A DNA stretch of 64,000 bases, from contig NZ_JAPFPW010000012.1 in assembly GCF_026155325.1 (NCBI RefSeq), forward strand, positions 62,001-126,000, read 5' to 3'. Of the stretch, positions 7,083 through 20,985 are shown piece after piece. The notes below the pieces were generated by a model. It saw only the letters and a program-made list of their open reading frames with translations. It was not told the DNA's origin and made no database searches. Each line of letters starts with the position of its first letter. Within the stretch, counting starts at the first letter, position 1. Source of the stretch: Desulfobotulus pelophilus (GTDB lineage: Bacteria; Desulfobacterota; Desulfobacteria; Desulfobacterales; ASO4-4). A program made the position numbers and the translations under genes.

Positions 7083-9014
7083 ATGATTACCTTTAATTCA
7101 GCAGATTTTAAAATTTCAGCTAAAGCACCTGAAAATCTGAACTCCATCAAACAATTACCAAATTACCAGCACACAAAAATTAAGCACATAAGCGCTGCTG
7201 ATAAGCAGGTAGAAGATTATACCGTAACCCTTGGGAATATGGACGTAGACATTAGGCCCTCTCAGATTATTGTTGATGGTGATGCCCTTCTGAAAGATCT
7301 TGTCGGAAAGAGTTATATTGCTTCATATGACCATACCCCCCGAATGCATGATTTGCAGACTTTGGTAAAACTGGATAGGGGGGATACATATAATGGTTTT
7401 AGTAACTTTATAAATCCAAGAGTGGATCGTGCATTAGTAGGTATCCAAAGAGCATTTCGAAGCGATACTGTCTCAGGATATGGGAGTGAAGAATGGGATG
7501 CGTTCATGACGGCAGCAGTCAAAACAGGAGGCCGGGTTGCTGATTTCATTTTGTTAACAGATAAATTAAGTGGTCAAGATCAAAAGGATTTTGTTAAATT
7601 TGCGGCAACATTATCCCCAGAGGATTTAAGCAAGTTTATGGATGCCGTGGATGTAACGGGTACGGCAGGTGAGGTGATCGGGCTTGCATCACGCATGGAT
7701 GAAAATCAGCTTGGAAAGTATTTTGATGCCGTAGTACTGGCAGATGGTGAAACCAAATTATTGAATCAGGTTATCAATAAATCCGGTAATATTTCATCTG
7801 TTTTATCCGCAGTGATTAAAGCGGGTGACAAGGCCCTGACTTTTCTGGAAAGTGCCGTCCGGGTTGGAACCGAAACCCTAAATCAAATGTCTGATTATAT
7901 CAACGCTTCCCGTGACGGAGAAAATATAGGTAATTTCATTGCTTTTACAAATCATGCCAAAGAAAAAGATATGGTTGCAATCATGGATCTGTCCGCAACG
8001 TTATCTTACCAAGATACATCCAGTTTATTGCTGGCTGTATCCCATCCCAAAGCAGAGGGGCAGATCGGGCGTTTGGTTGAGCAGGTATTTACCCTTCAAT
8101 CCGGTCAATCGAAAGCAGATCTATCGAATTTTTTGACCATCGCCGCCCATGCAGAAAAAAATATTGGCAAATTTTTGGATGTGGCAGGAGAAATTGAGTT
8201 GTCTTTCACAAGCACTTTATCTGTGGTGGACACGGTTAATTTTCTGGAAGCAGCGAGTATGCCGGATGCTGATATTGCTAACCTGACCAAAATGGGAGAA
8301 GGCCTTTTGGGTCAAGACAGAAGTAATTTTTTTTATGCAGCCTCAAACCCAGAAATCAATGCCAGAAAACTTTTACAGGAAATAAACCTTTTGCAAGGGG
8401 CTGAGCGGTCAGAATATCTGCTTAAAATGGCAAATGATGGTTCCACAAAAATGGATGAAAACATCTATATGAAGGGACTTCTTTCCTATACGGATTATGA
8501 AAATTTTAATGCCACGGTTTCCAGCCTGAAGCCCCATGAAACAGGCACTTTTATTTCTACCGTCAGCGACCACAAGGGAGCATCCCGGTCAGATTTTCTT
8601 CAGGCAACCCGTTCGGCGGGTGAGAATGCCGATAAATTTATTTCAAAATACCTCCGATCTTCCGCGGAAGATAAAAAAAATATTTTGCAAATGTCTTCGG
8701 AGCTTAGGGGAACAAACCGGGATAATTTTATTCAGGCCACCATTACCAAAACCGGTGATGTTAACGAACTGATTGATAGGGTCCGTGAAGTCCGGGATAA
8801 TAATGCCATTGGGGCAAAAGAAGAAAAACAAAAGTCGCTCACTTTGTTTTTAACCGCTGCTGGCGGGGCCGGTGCAAAGAATCTCGAAAACCTGATTTAC
8901 ATTGCAGGTGAGATTTTAAATGAAAATCCTTCATTATTTATTGATGAATTCAAAGAACTGGCTTTGGGGATCAAAAATGGAGACGCTGGCTCCAGAGTAG
9001 ATGCGGTAATTTGA
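7083..9014 (+). CDS. Unknown 643-residue alpha-helical repeat protein
   Basis: Strong ribosome binding site AGGAGG at 7069-7074 and a full-length frame support a real gene. No signal peptide, lipobox or membrane segment is visible. After a polar ~130-residue N-terminus, the rest is predicted helical and built from degenerate units of roughly 35-40 residues, with recurring pieces like D-L-S-N-F-L-T-I-A-A, D-R-S-N-F-F-Y-A-A-S, S-R-S-D-F-L-Q-A-T and N-R-D-N-F-I-Q-A-T, spaced by L-x-G or L-S turns. I know no named family with this pattern. The gene is visibly richer in A and T than its neighbours, which suggests acquisition by transfer. It could be a scaffold, a secreted effector or a surface protein; there is no basis to choose. 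Confidence 0.8.
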   Translation: MITFNSADFKISAKAPENLNSIKQLPNYQHTKIKHISAADKQVEDYTVTLGNMDVDIRPSQIIVDGDALLKDLVGKSYIASYDHTPRMHDLQTLVKLDRGDTYNGFSNFINPRVDRALVGIQRAFRSDTVSGYGSEEWDAFMTAAVKTGGRVADFILLTDKLSGQDQKDFVKFAATLSPEDLSKFMDAVDVTGTAGEVIGLASRMDENQLGKYFDAVVLADGETKLLNQVINKSGNISSVLSAVIKAGDKALTFLESAVRVGTETLNQMSDYINASRDGENIGNFIAFTNHAKEKDMVAIMDLSATLSYQDTSSLLLAVSHPKAEGQIGRLVEQVFTLQSGQSKADLSNFLTIAAHAEKNIGKFLDVAGEIELSFTSTLSVVDTVNFLEAASMPDADIANLTKMGEGLLGQDRSNFFYAASNPEINARKLLQEINLLQGAERSEYLLKMANDGSTKMDENIYMKGLLSYTDYENFNATVSSLKPHETGTFISTVSDHKGASRSDFLQATRSAGENADKFISKYLRSSAEDKKNILQMSSELRGTNRDNFIQATITKTGDVNELIDRVREVRDNNAIGAKEEKQKSLTLFLTAAGGAGAKNLENLIYIAGEILNENPSLFIDEFKELALGIKNGDAGSRVDAVI

Positions 9015-9240
9015 TTATAACAAAAACAGGAGGCTTTTTTGGCCTGTGTGGAAAAGATTATTTGGCTGTCACCAGGCATCAATGGAATAAGTGCGGTGGT
9101 TTTTTTGGCTGCCTGATCTTTACCTGAGGCACTTTATGCCTTAGAGTATAATCATCTGCAGGTTGTTCCGTTCTGTTGAGCAACCATTCTTTTCCCCTCG
9201 GATGATCTTTTCTTCAATCCTTACCGTTAAGGAGCCAGCC

Positions 9241-9552
9241 ATGGATGTAAAGGACTATTGCAAAGGCACAGAAATGGAACTTACCGCATGGAAAGCCAAA
9301 CTGTATGATCTGACCCGGAAGCTGGACAGGCTGTCTGCGGCGGATAAGGAAAAGGTGACGGCCAATGTGGAAGATTTACATATCATTGTAGCGGAGCTGG
9401 AAGACCGTATCCATCAGCTGCGTTTCGAGTGCCCGGCGGAGTGGGCACCGGTGAAGGACAGTATTGAAAAAGGCCATGTGGATATGCGCGGTCGCTATGA
9501 AAAGACCATGGAAGAAATTGGCCGTTACGCTCCTGTTTCCATAGCAGGATAA
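9241..9552 (+). CDS. Small conserved coiled-coil-like protein, copy 1
   Basis: A protein of 103 residues, soluble and strongly charged, with a heptad-rich middle (residues ~10-65: leucines and isoleucines spaced among K, D and E) suggesting an antiparallel coiled coil. Single cysteines occur near residues 7 and 63. It resembles short uncharacterised proteins I associate with deltaproteobacteria; no function is known to me. Start is ATG 9241 with AAGGAG a few bases upstream; the frame extends further 5' but without a ribosome binding site. A good terminator follows at 9584-9616. The protein is identical to that encoded at 13539-13850. Confidence 0.8.
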   Translation: MDVKDYCKGTEMELTAWKAKLYDLTRKLDRLSAADKEKVTANVEDLHIIVAELEDRIHQLRFECPAEWAPVKDSIEKGHVDMRGRYEKTMEEIGRYAPVSIAG

Positions 9553-9583
9553 TTTGCCGGATGGCTTTTTTGTTCAGACTGTG

Positions 9584-9616
9584 GGCGGGTAGGTGATGAG
9601 AACCTCCCGCCTTTTT
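9584..9616 (+). terminator. Rho-independent terminator after coiled-coil gene copy 1
   Basis: GGCGGG and AGGT pair with ACCT and CCCGCC around a short A/G-rich loop, with one bulged T, and the stem is followed directly by five Ts. It lies 31 bp after the stop codon and is part of the duplicated segment. Confidence 0.8.
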
Positions 9617-10084
9617 GTTTGCCCGGTACTGGCCACTCTGCCCACTTGAAAGAAGATTGAACAGGATCCGTGTGTAAGTTTGTACGAGAGGGCTCCTGCA
9701 AAGACAATCTCTCTAGCCAACCCGATTTTTGACCTGCGGCTTGTTCCTTATGATCTGCCGATAATTATTTGGATCAGAAGAAATCCTGTCTTGCCCTGCC
9801 TCTGATTTCGTGTCACCATATTCCAAACCAAATACAAATTGATGAGCAGACCCTTATCCGGACGGGAATCCTGCTTTCAGGAATCCTTTCCATTCTGCAT
9901 CACGGAACGATGTTTTGTGCAGGGATGGTTCAGAGGGGCTTGAACAAAGACTGCGTATCGGATTTTATTTTTGAGTAGGTGGCGTTGTTCGCTATAAAGA
10001 GAGTTGTTTTTTTGCGTTTGTCGTCTCTGGTCCTTGGGACTGGTAGGATGAAAAGAGGGAACCCTAGAGGCAAAGGAGGGCAGT
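9617..10084. other. Intergenic stretch, no gene identified
   Basis: About 470 bp between the first repeat copy and the barrel gene. Short frames exist on both strands, but none has a convincing ribosome binding site or recognisable sequence. It presumably holds the promoter for the barrel/lipoprotein pair. The barrel gene's ribosome binding site (AAAGGAGGG) is at its 3' end. Confidence 0.4.
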
Positions 10085-10945
10085 ATGACAAAAAAAAGTG
10101 GCTGGGTGATCATGTTGTTTGCATCTCTGGTGCTGGGGAGCGCTACGGGGGCATGGGCGGGAAGCCGGGAAGCTTCCTTTGCTCTTTTCAAACGCTCCAT
10201 TTCTCCTGTTTACCACTGGGGGCAGAACGGTTTGATAACCGTGCCCAAGGCTGTGACTCTGGGCAAGGGGAACTTCTATCTCGCCGGTTCGGCACAGGAT
10301 GCGGGCAAGATTGAAGGTGACCGGCTTTTTCTGACCGCAGCAACCATTATGGCAGGAACCTCTGAAGATGTGGAGCTGGGCTATACCCGTCGCCAGTTTA
10401 TCTGGGATAATCTGGATAAAACCGATCTTGAAATGGACACCTTCCATTTCAAGGCAAGGATTTTTCACATGACAGACACCTTCATTCCCCAGTTGGCGCT
10501 GGGGATTCATGCGGTTTCCCTGTCAGACAATGAATTCAACTCCTATGACGAAATTCTTTTTAATCCTTACCTTGCGGCAACGGTACAGATTCCTCTGGGT
10601 ACGGAAAAGGCCATGCTTTCCCTCACCGGCGTGGCGGAAGTGCTGTATAACGAGGGTGAAACGGGGCAGGCTTTTTTCAGTGCCGGCGCCGATCTTGGAT
10701 TCTGGGAGACCCTTTATCTGGTGGCAGAAATTCAGGGAATCAACCTTGATGATGGAGATCCCATTGTGAATATCGGAGCGAGGGTGAAAGCAGGGTGGTT
10801 CAGCCTTGGGGTCAGTCTCTTTAACGCGCTGGAGGATAAGTCCGGAGAGCTGGGTCAGGAAAAGGAAGACAGCCGGTACTGGATGGGGTATGCGGCCGTT
10901 GAAATTCCTCTGGGTACAATGTTGCGTGGGAAACAGGACCGCTAA
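10085..10945 (+). CDS. Predicted outer-membrane beta-barrel protein
   Basis: A protein of 286 residues with a cleavable signal peptide (hydrophobic stretch, then A-T-G-A-W-A-G near residue 26). The mature part alternates short amphipathic strands ending in aromatic residues with polar loops, for example L-G-K-G-N-F-Y-L-A-G-S, V-E-L-G-Y-T-R and M-G-Y-A-A-V-E-I, as in 12-14-strand outer-membrane barrels. The opening G-Q-N-G-L-I-T-V-P-K-A recalls YjbH-type barrels involved in polysaccharide export, but that similarity is weak. It is followed after 12 bp by the large lipoprotein, so the two probably work together at the cell surface. Confidence 0.7.
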   Translation: MTKKSGWVIMLFASLVLGSATGAWAGSREASFALFKRSISPVYHWGQNGLITVPKAVTLGKGNFYLAGSAQDAGKIEGDRLFLTAATIMAGTSEDVELGYTRRQFIWDNLDKTDLEMDTFHFKARIFHMTDTFIPQLALGIHAVSLSDNEFNSYDEILFNPYLAATVQIPLGTEKAMLSLTGVAEVLYNEGETGQAFFSAGADLGFWETLYLVAEIQGINLDDGDPIVNIGARVKAGWFSLGVSLFNALEDKSGELGQEKEDSRYWMGYAAVEIPLGTMLRGKQDR

Positions 10946-10957
10946 AGGAGGTGGCGA

Positions 10958-13324
10958 ATGAGAGCGTATCGGTATGCCGGGTCTCTGGCCCTCATGGTTC
11001 TGGTGATCTTGCTGGCAGGCTGTGATACACGGCCCATTCTGGGTGACCATATTATTACCCTTTATAATGCGGATCTTCAGGAGACAAAAACCTTTGCTCC
11101 CATGGACACCATGTATGTACGGGTGGCCGCTTTGGGGCCGGAAAAATATTATGCTGTCAGTGTGGTGGATGCCAGCGGCAGAACCATTTCCCGCATAGAA
11201 ATGCAAAGTGATGAAGGGGGTGTGCTGGGTCCCGTTCCCCTCTGGTATGACATGGGCCTTTATAAGGAAGCCGCAGGCAGTCCCCCTGTGCTGCGTGCTC
11301 TGGATGCTGTGGATATTGAAGCATTTTATGTGACGGTGCAGAGTCTGACGGATACGCAGACCCATTTCCGTCAACCCATGTGGATACGGTTCAAGGCGGA
11401 TCCGGCTCAGACAGGAAATCCCAGACCCGTAGTGTATGCAGCCTATTGTGAAAACAATGATCCCCAGGGCAGCTGCTATCCGGAGAATGCCTTTGAAGAA
11501 TCGGGAAGCCGTAAGGAAGATGGTATCAGTGCCAGTGATAAAACGAAAATTTATGTGGAAGCCCGGCGTATCCCCCAGAGGGTCGGCCCCAGGGATATTA
11601 CCCATGTGGATTTTTATGTACTTCCCTTCAGTGGTGCCTTTCTGGAGGATCGGGCCGTGCTCAGGGACTACATTGTGAAAAAAGAAAATGTGGCCGTAGG
11701 GCAGGATGGAGAAATCGGGCCAACCCTTCTCTGGAATCTGGATGACCCCCCGTCCAATCCACAGGTCATCAATCCGGGGCAGGATAATATGGCCTATATG
11801 ATCGTGATGGATGTGGATCAGAACGGCCGTTTTGATCTGGGGGTGGACACCACCCGGGATGGACTGGTGGATGATTACATTGACGGCATTGATGGCATGG
11901 GGGTTCCGGGTTTTATCATTCAGAATACCCCGGCCAATGATACCTTCATTACCATTCGGGATGAAGAGGGCAGGGCTGTAAATGCCATTCCGGACAAACA
12001 GGCGGAGCCGAAACACCTTTATTTCAATATGGATAATATCGCACTGCCTGCTGGTTTTACCCTGGCCACCGATACCATCCGTATCCATCTGATTGAGGCC
12101 GAGAATAATGACCTTCAAAATTTAGACCCTATTCCTGCTGATTCGCGTGCTGGCCCGGTGCCAGCTGTTTCCGTAGAGCCGGCTTCCGGACTTCGTCTGC
12201 TTCCCTATGCAGAAGACATTCCTTTGCTGAATACCAGGGCTGTGGCTGCTGATGTATATACCTATGGTACTTTGCCTTTAGGAGCGGACAGGCTTCTTGA
12301 CATCGTTGTGGATCTGGATGGGAATAACGTGTTTAACACGGGTGACCTGCATCTTAGGGGTGCTGTGACCATGGTTTATGTGGAGCCGAATCCGGAGTAT
12401 GAGACCCACCTGAATATGGCGGGTACGGCCCCTTCCATCTATTTTGATGAAAGCGGAACCCTGAACGGCAATACCAGAGTGTACATGAAGGTGACGGATA
12501 TGCCTGCTGGGGCAGCCCCCTATGATGTGTATGTGGTGCCACGCAGGGACTGGGCAGACGGGAACACGGTTTCCGGCAGAGAGCTTTTTGTGGTGGAAGG
12601 TCTTCAGGGCAACGGTGTTTTTGAGATCTGGGATCTTGACACTGCCCACAGGGTGATCAATCCCGGACCGGATAGCAATACCTATGATCTGGTCATCGAC
12701 AGAAACCGCAATGGCCGTTTTGATGCGGCAGGGGATGCTGTGATCCGCATCGTGATTCTGAACACAGAGGCCAACACCTACCCCAGAGTTGCCTATGCCA
12801 ACATTGCATCCGGCGGTGTCTTCGGTAACACCCGGCAACAGCACTGGACCCTGTACTCGGAATTCTGTGATTACAGGGATGTGTTCCGTGTGGACGGTGG
12901 AGGGACCAATCCCACAGGTGGTGGTTACGGGGTAAAGGCCGTATTCAATCCCTACTTCAAGTGGTTTTCCAATCCCGGTCCGGAGCGGGAGCTGGAAGGG
13001 ATTTACCATGGCCTTTTCGTGGATGTCTATATCGTGGATGCGGATACTTTTGACCTCACGCGTTTTGGCCGTGCCGGTGAACTCAATGACACGGTGGATG
13101 TCCGGGGCCGTAAATCCACCATTGCCATTCAGCCCTCCTGTTATAACGGAGCCGGTATGATGACCATATGGAGGGCTCCCCTGAAAAGAGGGCGCTACTA
13201 TGTGATCGTGGATGTGGACAGAAACGGCAGGATAGTGGAAGGCCGGGATATCATTGATGCGGTGAACTTCAGGGGAGAGTCCATTCTGGATGACCCGGCT
13301 ATTGTCGGTTTTTCCGTGGAATAG
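10958..13324 (+). CDS. Large lipoprotein with repeated D-x-D-x-N-G-x-F modules
   Basis: A protein of 788 residues starting with a lipoprotein signal (hydrophobic stretch ending L-L-A-G-C, lipidated Cys ~22). The body contains several related modules. Their best landmark is an acidic loop: M-D-V-D-Q-N-G-R-F-D (~residue 285), V-D-L-D-G-N-N-V-F-N (~450), I-D-R-N-R-N-G-R-F-D (~578) and V-D-V-D-R-N-G-R-I-V (~749). These resemble calcium-binding EF-hand or dockerin loops. Upstream of two of them the phrase V-I-N-P-G-x-D recurs. Aspartate-rich beta modules like these are usual in secreted adhesins or surface-layer proteins. Start ATG 10958 follows AAAGGAGG. No named family was recognised. Confidence 0.75.
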   Translation: MRAYRYAGSLALMVLVILLAGCDTRPILGDHIITLYNADLQETKTFAPMDTMYVRVAALGPEKYYAVSVVDASGRTISRIEMQSDEGGVLGPVPLWYDMGLYKEAAGSPPVLRALDAVDIEAFYVTVQSLTDTQTHFRQPMWIRFKADPAQTGNPRPVVYAAYCENNDPQGSCYPENAFEESGSRKEDGISASDKTKIYVEARRIPQRVGPRDITHVDFYVLPFSGAFLEDRAVLRDYIVKKENVAVGQDGEIGPTLLWNLDDPPSNPQVINPGQDNMAYMIVMDVDQNGRFDLGVDTTRDGLVDDYIDGIDGMGVPGFIIQNTPANDTFITIRDEEGRAVNAIPDKQAEPKHLYFNMDNIALPAGFTLATDTIRIHLIEAENNDLQNLDPIPADSRAGPVPAVSVEPASGLRLLPYAEDIPLLNTRAVAADVYTYGTLPLGADRLLDIVVDLDGNNVFNTGDLHLRGAVTMVYVEPNPEYETHLNMAGTAPSIYFDESGTLNGNTRVYMKVTDMPAGAAPYDVYVVPRRDWADGNTVSGRELFVVEGLQGNGVFEIWDLDTAHRVINPGPDSNTYDLVIDRNRNGRFDAAGDAVIRIVILNTEANTYPRVAYANIASGGVFGNTRQQHWTLYSEFCDYRDVFRVDGGGTNPTGGGYGVKAVFNPYFKWFSNPGPERELEGIYHGLFVDVYIVDADTFDLTRFGRAGELNDTVDVRGRKSTIAIQPSCYNGAGMMTIWRAPLKRGRYYVIVDVDRNGRIVEGRDIIDAVNFRGESILDDPAIVGFSVE

Positions 13325-13526
13325 CTCATAGGGATTTTCCCGGATCTTTCCCTGCCTCCAGCGCCGGAGAGCAGGGGAAAGGTTCCCGGATGCCGGGCGG
13401 TGATGGAAACGATGTTTTTTTGCATCCTAACTATTTACGTTGCGACAAATAGAGCCTATTGTATTGGCACTTCTCTCCGTTCCCTTCAGTGGCACGGTGT
13501 TTTCCCTTTCTTTCACCCATGTACCA

Positions 13527-13914
13527 AAGGAGCCAGCCATGGATGTAAAGGACTATTGCAAAGGCACAGAAATGGAACTTACCGCATGGAAAGCCAAACT
13601 GTATGATCTGACCCGGAAGCTGGACAGGCTGTCTGCGGCGGATAAGGAAAAGGTGACGGCCAATGTGGAAGATTTACATATCATTGTAGCGGAGCTGGAA
13701 GACCGTATCCATCAGCTGCGTTTCGAGTGCCCGGCGGAGTGGGCACCGGTGAAGGACAGTATTGAAAAAGGCCATGTGGATATGCGCGGTCGCTATGAAA
13801 AGACCATGGAAGAAATTGGCCGTTACGCTCCTGTTTCCATAGCAGGATAATTTGCCGGATGGCTTTTTTGTTCAGACTGTGGGCGGGTAGGTGATGAGAA
13901 CCTCCCGCCTTTTT
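13527..13914 (+). repeat. 388-bp direct repeat, copy 2
   Basis: Identical to 9229-9616. Flanking sequence on either side is unrelated between copies; the T-run after the terminator is one base longer here. No target-site duplication or insertion-sequence end was recognised at the borders. Confidence 0.95.
13539..13850 (+). CDS. Small conserved coiled-coil-like protein, copy 2
   Basis: Encodes exactly the same 103 residues as the gene at 9241-9552, with no silent differences, so the duplication is recent or is kept uniform by gene conversion. The upstream 200 bp differs completely from copy 1, so the two copies may be driven by different promoters. ATG 13539 is preceded by AAAGGAG. The same terminator follows, and then the SDR gene begins about 40 bp later. 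Confidence 0.8.
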   Translation: MDVKDYCKGTEMELTAWKAKLYDLTRKLDRLSAADKEKVTANVEDLHIIVAELEDRIHQLRFECPAEWAPVKDSIEKGHVDMRGRYEKTMEEIGRYAPVSIAG

Positions 13915-13915
13915 T
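13882..13915 (+). terminator. Rho-independent terminator after coiled-coil gene copy 2
   Basis: Same GGCGGG/CCCGCC plus AGGT/ACCT hairpin as at 9584-9616, here followed by six Ts. It separates the duplicated gene from the SDR gene that starts at 13955. Confidence 0.8.
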
Positions 13916-13954
13916 GATGGCGCAGCACGTATGGATTTCATGAAAGGAGCACCC

Positions 13955-15496
13955 ATGGATCTTGCCATTCCGGAAAAGCCTCTGCTGGTTACGGGGGCAA
14001 CGGGTTATATAGGGGGGAGGTTGGTGCCCCTTTTGCTGTCCAGAGGGTTCAAAGTCCGGGCCCTTTCCAGATCTTTGAGAAAAATGCATGCCCGGCCCTG
14101 GAGCAATCATCCCAATGTGGAGCTTTTCGCCTGCGATCTCATGGATGGCCCGGCTCTGGAAAAGGCAGTCGAAGGCTGCTCCGGTGCCTGGTATCTGGTA
14201 CATTCCATGGAGGGAGATTCGTCCGGTTTTGCCGCAAGGGAAGAAAAAACGGCAAAGAATATGGTGCAGGCCGCGGAAAAGGCCTGCTTGGAACGGATCG
14301 TCTATTTGAGTGGCCTTGGGGATGAAAAGGACCCCCATCTCAGTTCACACCTGAAAAGCAGGCATGCCGTTGCAAGGATCCTTACTTCCGGAAAAACACC
14401 GGTCACCGTTCTCCGGGCAGCCATGGTGCTGGGTTCGGGAAGTGCATCCTTTGAAATTCTGCGCTATCTGGTGGATCGTCTTCCCTTTATGCTGACGCCA
14501 AAGTGGATACGGACCGCCTGCCAGCCCATCGGCATAGGCAATACCCTGGAGTATCTGGTGGGGGCCATGGTGCATCCGGATATGGGCGGGCAAAGCTTTG
14601 ATATCGGCGGTCCGGACGTCTTAAGTTATCAGGATTTGATGCAGCTCTATGCGGACGAGGCCGGATTGAAAAGGCGGATCATTATCCCCGTACCTTTTCA
14701 GACTCCGGGCCTTTCAGCCTTCTGGGTGCATCTGGTCTGTCCCCTTCCCGCAGGCATTGCCAAGCCCCTTGCAGAAGGTCTTCGAAATCCTGTGGTCTGC
14801 GGGGATATGCGCATTGCCGGGCTGATTCCCCAGAAGCTTCTGTCCTGCAGGGAAGCCATCCGTGAGGCCATCCGCAAGGTGGCCCAGGAAGAGGTGGAAA
14901 CCCGCTGGTCCGATGCGGGAAAACTCCTTCCACCGGAATGGGTGCAGTGTACGGACCCTTCCTACAGCGGCGGCACCATTCTGGACTGCTGCTACAAGGT
15001 GAAAATCCGGGGAAATCCCGAAAACATCTGGCAGAAGGTGACATCCATTGGTGGTAAAAATGGATGGTATTACGGGGATATTCTCTGGCGTATCCGGGGG
15101 CGCTGGGATCAGATCACAGGGGGCGTGGGCCTGCGCCGGGGACGCCGACATCCGGAGGAGCTTCTGGTGGGGGATGCCTTAGATTTCTGGCGGGTTCTTG
15201 ATGTGAAATCCCATGATCGCCTGCTGCTTCTGGCGGAGATGCGTCTTCCCGGCGAAGCCCTGCTGGAATTTCGTATGAAAGATCTTGGGGATGGTCATTG
15301 TGAACTGCAGCAGATGTCCCGCTTTCTTCCCAAAGGGCTGTTGGGCATTGTCTACTGGTATGCCCTGCTTCCTTTTCATCATCTGATTTTTAAAGGCATG
15401 CTGAGCCGTATGGCAGAAGCTGCCGGAAAACCCGCTGGCAGTGTTCAGGCCTTTTCCTATGACTGGAAAGCCCTTGTGTGTACTTATGATGAGTGA
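13955..15496 (+). CDS. NAD(P)-binding SDR-family epimerase/reductase with C-terminal DUF2867
   Basis: About 513 residues. The N-terminal Rossmann fold has the dinucleotide motif G-A-T-G-Y-I-G-G near residue 15, followed by basic residues (R-S-L-R-K) that suggest NADP(H). The atypical SDR part covers ~residues 8-290. The C-terminal ~180 residues, with I-R-G-R-W-D-Q-I-T-G-G-V-G-L-R-R-G-R and conserved tryptophans, match the DUF2867 domain often fused to it. The reaction is unknown. Start ATG 13955 is chosen because AAGGAG ends 5 bases before it; an in-frame ATG at 13931 lacks one. It is a single gene with no obvious partner. Confidence 0.83.
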   Translation: MDLAIPEKPLLVTGATGYIGGRLVPLLLSRGFKVRALSRSLRKMHARPWSNHPNVELFACDLMDGPALEKAVEGCSGAWYLVHSMEGDSSGFAAREEKTAKNMVQAAEKACLERIVYLSGLGDEKDPHLSSHLKSRHAVARILTSGKTPVTVLRAAMVLGSGSASFEILRYLVDRLPFMLTPKWIRTACQPIGIGNTLEYLVGAMVHPDMGGQSFDIGGPDVLSYQDLMQLYADEAGLKRRIIIPVPFQTPGLSAFWVHLVCPLPAGIAKPLAEGLRNPVVCGDMRIAGLIPQKLLSCREAIREAIRKVAQEEVETRWSDAGKLLPPEWVQCTDPSYSGGTILDCCYKVKIRGNPENIWQKVTSIGGKNGWYYGDILWRIRGRWDQITGGVGLRRGRRHPEELLVGDALDFWRVLDVKSHDRLLLLAEMRLPGEALLEFRMKDLGDGHCELQQMSRFLPKGLLGIVYWYALLPFHHLIFKGMLSRMAEAAGKPAGSVQAFSYDWKALVCTYDE

Positions 15497-15599: not shown

Positions 15600-15862
15600 G
15601 CAAGGCTCCGTGGCTATTTGCAAGTGACATTGCAATCGTTTCGGATCAGAGCTTTGAAGGCCTGTGCGAAAGAAGCGGCAAACTGTCTGAGCCGCCACAA
15701 AGGCAGCGTGCTTACGCCTGCTATGGTAATCAAAAAGCTTATCCTGCCTGTGGCGGTGAGTTTTTGCCGCTTCCGCGCAGGGCAAGAAGCTCTACGAATA
15801 AGATTGCGTCACAGGCAAATAGTCTGGGGCCTGTGCATCTTGTCTTGCAGGTAAGGTACTTG
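15600..15862 (+). repeat. MITE-like repeat, copy A
   Basis: The stretch 15612-15790 matches the reverse complement of 20794-20968 with most positions conserved. Its ends form imperfect inverted repeats: the left end reads, on the minus strand, TGTCACTTGCAAATAGCC, and the right end reads CGTCACAGGCAAATAGTC at about 15807-15824. A further single end of the same type lies at 15948-15990. No transposase gene is inside. The ~560 bp between the SDR and ABC genes is otherwise without genes. Confidence 0.7.
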
Positions 15863-20668: not shown

Positions 20669-20985
20669 GTCAGGCAGATGCACAGACACCCCGGCCGTTT
20701 GTCCGTGACCCAATCCGGTACGGAAGCTGAAAAACCCAAGCCCTTTACGGGAACAAAAATGCCTATGGATCTTGAGTGCCGGATTCTGAGAGTCCTTTGC
20801 CCTGTGCGGAAGCGGCCAAAACTTCCCGTCACGGCAGGATGAGCTTTTTGATTAGCATAGCAGGCGTAAGCATGCTGCCTTTGTGGCGGCTCAGGCAGTT
20901 TGCCGCTTCCGCACAGGCCTGCGAAACTCTGCTCCGAAAGGATTGCCATGTCACTTGCAAACAGCCGGGGTGTCTTGCGCCGGGG
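20669..20985 (-). repeat. MITE-like repeat, copy B (opposite orientation to copy A)
   Basis: Related by inverted orientation to 15600-15862. Both ends carry the same ~20-35 bp end sequence pointing outward: GTCACGGACAAACGGCC read on the minus strand at about 20694-20710, and GTCACTTGCAAACAGCC at about 20949-20965. About 100 bp of the interior (roughly 20711-20790) is missing from copy A, so A may be a shortened version. It occupies most of the 555 bp gap between the AttH-like gene and the PAS/EAL gene; the remainder shows no gene. Confidence 0.7.

Follow-up and report, generated by a model that had tools for sequence, protein, structure and literature searches.

A perfect 388-bp direct repeat around a two-gene module in Desulfobotulus pelophilus points to homogenisation of two whole genes

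How does a long, perfect direct repeat come to bracket a pair of accessory genes, and does such an arrangement amount to a switch? The question is raised by a locus in Desulfobotulus pelophilus, lying in a 64,000-nt stretch of DNA that was analysed at its full length (hereafter the window; NCBI RefSeq assembly GCF_026155325.1, contig NZ_JAPFPW010000012.1, positions 62,001 to 126,000), where two copies of a small gene, here called R, flank a predicted outer-membrane barrel gene and a predicted lipoprotein gene (together, the module). A sequence-only reading of the window had ascribed the repeat to a recent duplication or gene conversion and had proposed that recombination between its copies could excise or amplify the segment in one step, possibly as a phase-variable envelope cassette. 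The locus was compared with the single-R loci of the two other Desulfobotulus genomes in the sample (G001 and G002; three genomes of the genus, one per species, the present one included) and with genomes of the same order, the Desulfobacterales.

The two repeat copies match at 388 of 388 bases at an offset of 4298, and the match is maximal, as the next base differs on either side. The source is a draft assembly (86 contigs, 3.66 Mb, the window being on contig C12), in which the assembler may have written one consensus into both positions, so that near-identity is firm and the exact 388/388 is not proven. The match is beyond chance; apart from it, the 64 kb contain one direct-repeat family (minimum length 40, seed 16), 61 nt long with an 85% match, and there is no third DNA copy of the 388-bp repeat in the assembly. 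Each copy holds one whole gene, made up of a ribosome-binding site (RBS), a 103-codon open reading frame (ORF), and a hairpin terminator with a T-run (– 19.5 kcal/mol, a stability reached by 0 and 1 of 200 shuffles), which is not listed by a simple terminator scan restricted to loops of 3–8. The maximal match, the ORFs and the folds thus confirm the earlier description of a perfect repeat with a complete 103-residue gene and its terminator in each copy. No transposase was matched in the repeat (Pfam, NCBIfam), so the pair does not have the make-up of a composite transposon.

Both congeners carry a single R. The DNA in front of it corresponds to that in front of copy 1, and the DNA behind it, with the NmrA/DUF2867 gene, to that behind copy 2. 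Once the module and one R are removed, the window flanks form one continuous alignment of ~1200 bp, with 92% identity to G002 and 87% to G001. G002 is the closer relative, with differences of 1.9, 2.1, 2.7, and 4.8% in four flanking stretches, of which the last is the start of the NmrA gene, and the R protein of Desulfobotulus alkaliphilus ASO4-4 is 88% identical. No match to module DNA was found in the R loci of G001 and G002, and neither the barrel nor the lipoprotein was found in their genomes at E ≤ 0.001. One-step excision is supported insofar as both congeners have exactly the single-R arrangement that one crossover would leave; this state is the expected product of recombination between the repeats and, equally, the state prior to a gain. 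The suggested search for loss of the segment in relatives thus returned two single-R genomes without the module, but the difference lies between species and may reflect a gain in the present lineage.

A hint at what happened comes from the contrast between the R genes and the DNA in front of them. The region upstream of copy 2 is 73–77% identical to the other R upstream regions, while the orthologous ones are 81–88% identical among themselves. In an alignment anchored at the gene, the scores of copy 2 against copy 1, G002 and G001 were reached by 3, 3 and 61 of 2000 shuffles, respectively, and their sum by 1 of 2000; among 3071 genomic segments, 1, 0 and 0 reached the single scores and none the sum, which was likewise reached by none of 41 other RBS-anchored segments (best 42 vs 93). 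In the ORF, on the other hand, 18 of 312 bases differ between the window and G002 and 41 of 312 between the window and G001, but none between the two copies. If the divergence of the copies went back to the split from G002, the ORF should show ~18 differences, and given an upper limit of 3 for the observed zero, the last homogenisation would fall within less than about one-sixth of the time since that split. Over the 60 columns from stop codon to terminator, an outlier in this respect, 15 changes are unique to the window (present in both copies), 1 to G002 and 9 to G001, as though a single variant had spread to both R genes. Moreover, the limits of the identical tract coincide with those of the homology: it starts at the RBS, in front of which the two upstream regions differ, and stops at the T-run, behind which copy 1 gives way to foreign sequence.

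Since the R bodies are identical while their upstream regions are homologous yet diverged, gene conversion is the probable cause: the copies are closer to each other than to their orthologues and have diverged homologous flanks, the latter less clearly so when the alignment is not anchored. The comparison thus points to two whole genes that were homogenised over their shared part and not to a plain copy-and-paste. From the earlier pairing of recent duplication with gene conversion, recent homogenisation is retained (identical copies, set against 18/312 to G002), whereas duplication alone is too simple for a second copy whose upstream region is a diverged homologue. A conserved leader hairpin with compensatory changes was also considered and dropped, the hairpin being part of the best fold in copy 1 and G001 but not in G002, and copy 2 folding no better than shuffles (z 0.56). 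The features of the locus are collected in Table 1.

Table 1. Features of the R–module–R locus (positions in the window)
Feature	Position	Strand	Basis and remarks
Upstream region of R copy 1	9099-9228	+	Orthologous to single-R upstream regions in G001/G002; 84-88% identity, last 130 bases
R copy 1, 103 aa	Repeat 9229-9616, ORF 9241-9552	+	RBS to terminator T-run; 388/388 to copy 2, terminator fold
Module left edge, ~46 bp	9617-9660	+	Common to two other sites of the same genome, each directly 3' of an intrinsic terminator
Predicted outer-membrane barrel protein, 286 aa	10085-10945	+	Sub-cut-off Pfam matches; absent from G001 and G002; in two other genomes of the order
Predicted lipoprotein, 788 aa	10958-13324	+	Lipobox; no Pfam/NCBIfam match; absent from G001 and G002; also in two further genomes of the order
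Upstream region of R copy 2	13407-13526	+	Diverged homologue of R upstream; 73-77% over ~106 aligned columns
R copy 2, 103 aa	Repeat 13527-13914, ORF 13539-13850	+	RBS to terminator T-run; identity to copy 1, terminator fold
NmrA/DUF2867 gene, 521 aa from first ATG	13931-15496	+	PF05368, PF11066; conserved neighbour of R

The wider distribution bears on which part of the locus is native. Relatives of R occur in 22 of 58 related genomes (the present one included) and at 59 named loci, of which up to 6 kb were inspected on each side, many contigs being shorter; the NmrA/DUF2867 gene is in the same stretch as R at 14 of these 59 loci, and the barrel and lipoprotein genes at none. As the R–NmrA neighbourhood recurs across the order and the module is found at 0/59 loci, the former is probably old and the latter a newcomer. 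Two diverged R relatives stand side by side at 9 of the 59 loci, for which reason R appears prone to local duplication. In a genome of another family (G016, locus L018, 1377-2808), two R-type genes separated by 1132 bp share 91% identity over 300 nt, which we read as an independent recent duplication there. Among 291 genomes of the order, the barrel–lipoprotein pair was found in three, again counting the present one; the other two (G019 and G083) belong to two genera of one family, and in their operon a third gene comes after the pair, encoding a predicted exported protein that matches no Pfam family; the window contains no convincing relic of this gene (best E 0.68). No R lies near the pair within the stretches inspected in G019 and G083, and the G019 genome is without any R. 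A scan of named genome contigs found no relatives of the lipoprotein.

On balance, and with modest confidence, we favour a lineage-specific gain of the module and a second R by recombination through R, followed by gene conversion, with RecA-type deletion of the segment possible. The native locus would have consisted of a single R beside the NmrA/DUF2867 gene, and a 4.3-kb segment, holding the module and a second R with a related but diverged upstream region, would have arrived at this native R in the present lineage, probably by homologous recombination through R. Gene conversion would then have equalised the two R genes from the RBS to the terminator T-run, while a RecA-type crossover between the repeats could delete the segment and thereby restore the single-R state of the congeners. 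We infer all four elements, that is, the direction of gain, the route through R, the conversion, and the possible loss; gain is favoured because one such event explains three genomes while loss needs two. Several observations weigh against this account. The choice between a gain and a double loss rests on parsimony with only three genomes of the genus, and copy 2 has the native downstream flank, so that no donor segment is delimited. The upstream likeness is weaker in the unanchored test (46, 3 and 599 of 1000 shuffles), and the ORF shows no excess of window-specific changes (7 vs 8 in G002), which argues against an imported R body; such an excess is confined to the stretch after the stop codon (15 vs 1). 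In addition, the G+C content and codon use of the module are ordinary for its genome, and a scan listed no promoter-like site before either R copy.

The same facts can be arranged in other ways. If R–module–R were ancestral to the genus, with copies kept alike by conversion and the module lost from both congeners by R–R recombination, the single-R loci of G001 and G002 would have precisely the post-loss form that they have, the copy upstream regions would be expected to be more diverged (73–77%) than the orthologous ones (81–88%), as in old paralogues, and the ordinary composition of the module would cause no surprise; this main rival is nonetheless improbable in our view, since it requires two independent losses, with no other trace of the module in either congener. 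Considerably less credit is due to a plain recent duplication, in which R was copied, or the module was inserted with a fresh R, and in which there was no conversion and the upstream likeness is accidental or functional. Such an event would account for the perfect identity and gains from the weak comparison with G001 (61/2000 anchored and 599/1000 unanchored shuffles), but it must leave aside a summed upstream likeness that 1 of 2000 shuffles and none of the 3071 genomic or 41 RBS-anchored segments attained.

The phase-variable cassette, in which repeated loss and amplification within a population switches an envelope trait, is suggested by long perfect direct repeats 4.3 kb apart with envelope-type genes between them, and it is very unlikely: the congeners lack the module altogether, so that the known difference is one between species, and loss would be one-way without another copy, while the genome has no second copy of either module gene. 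A version of it with its own recombinase meets with a segment that contains no recombinase gene. A striking cassette between repeats thus needs no switch as its explanation. We attach the least weight of all to an assembly effect, whether a single chromosomal R with the module on a circle or elsewhere, or slightly different copies given one consensus; the assembly is indeed a draft of 86 contigs, another of which ends inside repeated sequence, but the contig is continuous over 130 kb, and R on both sides of the module with different outer flanks needs a true insertion or a circle. A far-reaching and improbable further reading would be that R serves as a homology dock, through which R-carrying modules enter and leave the R–NmrA locus by RecA, with conversion keeping the R copies identical and the dock usable, and with populations of this species being a mixture of chromosomes that have the module and chromosomes that lack it.

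The barrel and lipoprotein genes are the only plausible genes between the R copies. The sequence-only reading had named both, and its two-gene content holds, the barrel as a prediction; its description of the 788-residue product as a repeat lipoprotein does not, as self-BLASTP at E ≤ 0.1 found no internal repeats and only three DxDxNG-type motifs are present. The 286-aa protein stays below the Pfam cut-offs (PF11231, DUF3034, 19.2 bits vs 25; PF13505, 14.6 vs 28.7), with the G019 homologue also scoring 19.2 bits for DUF3034, and its structure model is strand-rich and of low confidence; its identity as a barrel is predicted from these sub-cut-off matches and this model. The structure models have mean predicted local distance difference test (pLDDT) values of 39.7 and 34.7, too weak to use. 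The lipoprotein has a signal sequence and a lipobox (LAGC, by eye), and matches nothing in Pfam, NCBIfam or the PDB sequence search. Its lipobox cysteine is followed by Asp, a residue that in enterobacteria favours the inner membrane at this position, so that a surface location is no more than possible. An envelope role of the module is likely.

Mobile elements were sought as carriers of the module. The Pfam scan matched no recombinase, transposase or integrase families between the R copies, the lipoprotein was matched neither in plasmids nor in phages or viral contigs, and a search with the barrel, confined to plasmids, gave no match there. A composite transposon, a prophage, and an integrative element were thus rejected, for want of a transposase or integrase between the copies and of mobile-element matches.

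The left edge of the module, ~46 bp that start directly after the T-run of the copy 1 terminator, recurs at two other sites of the same genome: on contig C5 it follows the terminator of a tRNA-Gly gene, and at the end of contig C15 that of metK (by eye). The hairpins before all three sites fold well, and the edge is 79% identical to the C5 site (E 0.03; score reached by 0/300 shuffles). The pattern is absent from G001 and G002; outside the present genome it gave 13 hits in 12 of 290 genomes, five of them after clear terminators (by eye), and as the backward control pattern gave 6 hits in 291 genomes, several of these hits are due to chance. Three loci in two genomes (L081, L083 and L091; G280 and G273) have the same first bases directly after terminators and have in common the first 148–165 bases of the L083 element, which two Rfam models identify as a group II intron with scores above the gathering thresholds. 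Two of the three sites have only these first 148–165 bases and are possible 5' fragments of terminator-targeting introns.

According to a passage of PMC4424553, group IIC introns insert at intrinsic terminators, and the left edge resembles them in lying directly after a T-run and in its first bases, which are like those of L083, while it departs from them in being only ~46 bp long and in having no catalytic domain that could be found. It may be the 5' remnant or end of a group IIC-type intron. Against L083, the window start aligns over 22 bases (0/300 shuffles, a biased figure, L083 having been found with a window-derived pattern) and the C5 start over 17 (5/300), with no likeness beyond these first 17–22 bases; the interior of the C5 site gives no alignment better than chance (294/300 shuffles reach its score). 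Neither domains D1–D4 nor D5 were found in 8900-14200 or at the C5 site, and no D5 was found in the genome at E ≤ 0.001 among the 150 of 324 candidates that were scored. The idea that the whole of 9617-10084 is a group II intron was thus not supported. In G001, a D5 remnant that scores below threshold (35.2 bits) shares 89% identity over 46 bases with the D5 of L083, and by this resemblance such introns have been in the genus. At the C5 locus (L057, 4105-5534), variable sequence lies between the tRNA-Gly gene and a phage-integrase-type gene (PF00589, 43.4 bits); the tRNA-Gly locus of G002 also has an integrase-type gene, with a different intervening stretch.

Two other features lie close by. 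A gene for a 643-aa protein beside the repeat (7083-9014) is low in G+C (41.5%, with 37% at third positions); it is absent from G002 and has five partial matches in G001, three within the first bases of contigs and one downstream of the NmrA gene. It is a second variable gene at the locus, perhaps in several copies. An inverted repeat of 77 nt (15672-15748 and 20833-20909, 95% complementary) has related stretches in G002 and G001 (up to 92% over ~350 bp) and is probably a dispersed intergenic repeat of the genus.

As for the R protein itself, no envelope role is known for it. Its residues 4–91 align with the NCBIfam family of Sll1863-type stress response proteins (NF052504, E 5.8e−7), at a score below the family cut-off (29.6 vs 35 bits). 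A search of PDB sequences returned nothing meaningful (best E 0.17), and the C-terminal tail ...PVS(I/V)(P/A)G is conserved across 12 aligned R proteins. In Synechocystis, Sll1863 is strongly salt-induced and of unknown function, and its inactivation caused no salt sensitivity, the latter cited as unpublished results (passage in PMC8670252).

The locus is a well delimited case of a perfect direct repeat arising around accessory genes, with the single-copy state known from two related genomes. The repeat stops at the limits of homology between two whole genes, and perfect identity up to these limits speaks for conversion over a fresh copy. What the locus displays is ordinary genome dynamics with unusually clear limits, a fine instance of something already known; should strains that carry the module and strains that lack it be found, the locus would offer an easy way to test whether recombination drives envelope variation in sulphate reducers. 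Accessory segments flanked by direct repeats can be lost by homologous recombination, and the present one agrees with them in its perfect repeats and in relatives with a single-repeat state, whereas its repeat is a complete gene with a terminator instead of an insertion sequence or an rRNA operon, and its loss is a possibility. Compared with the concerted evolution by gene conversion described for prokaryotes in PMC6053082, the R pair is confined to one species and stands around an accessory module, but it has in common with those genes that the copies within one genome are closer to each other than to their orthologue.

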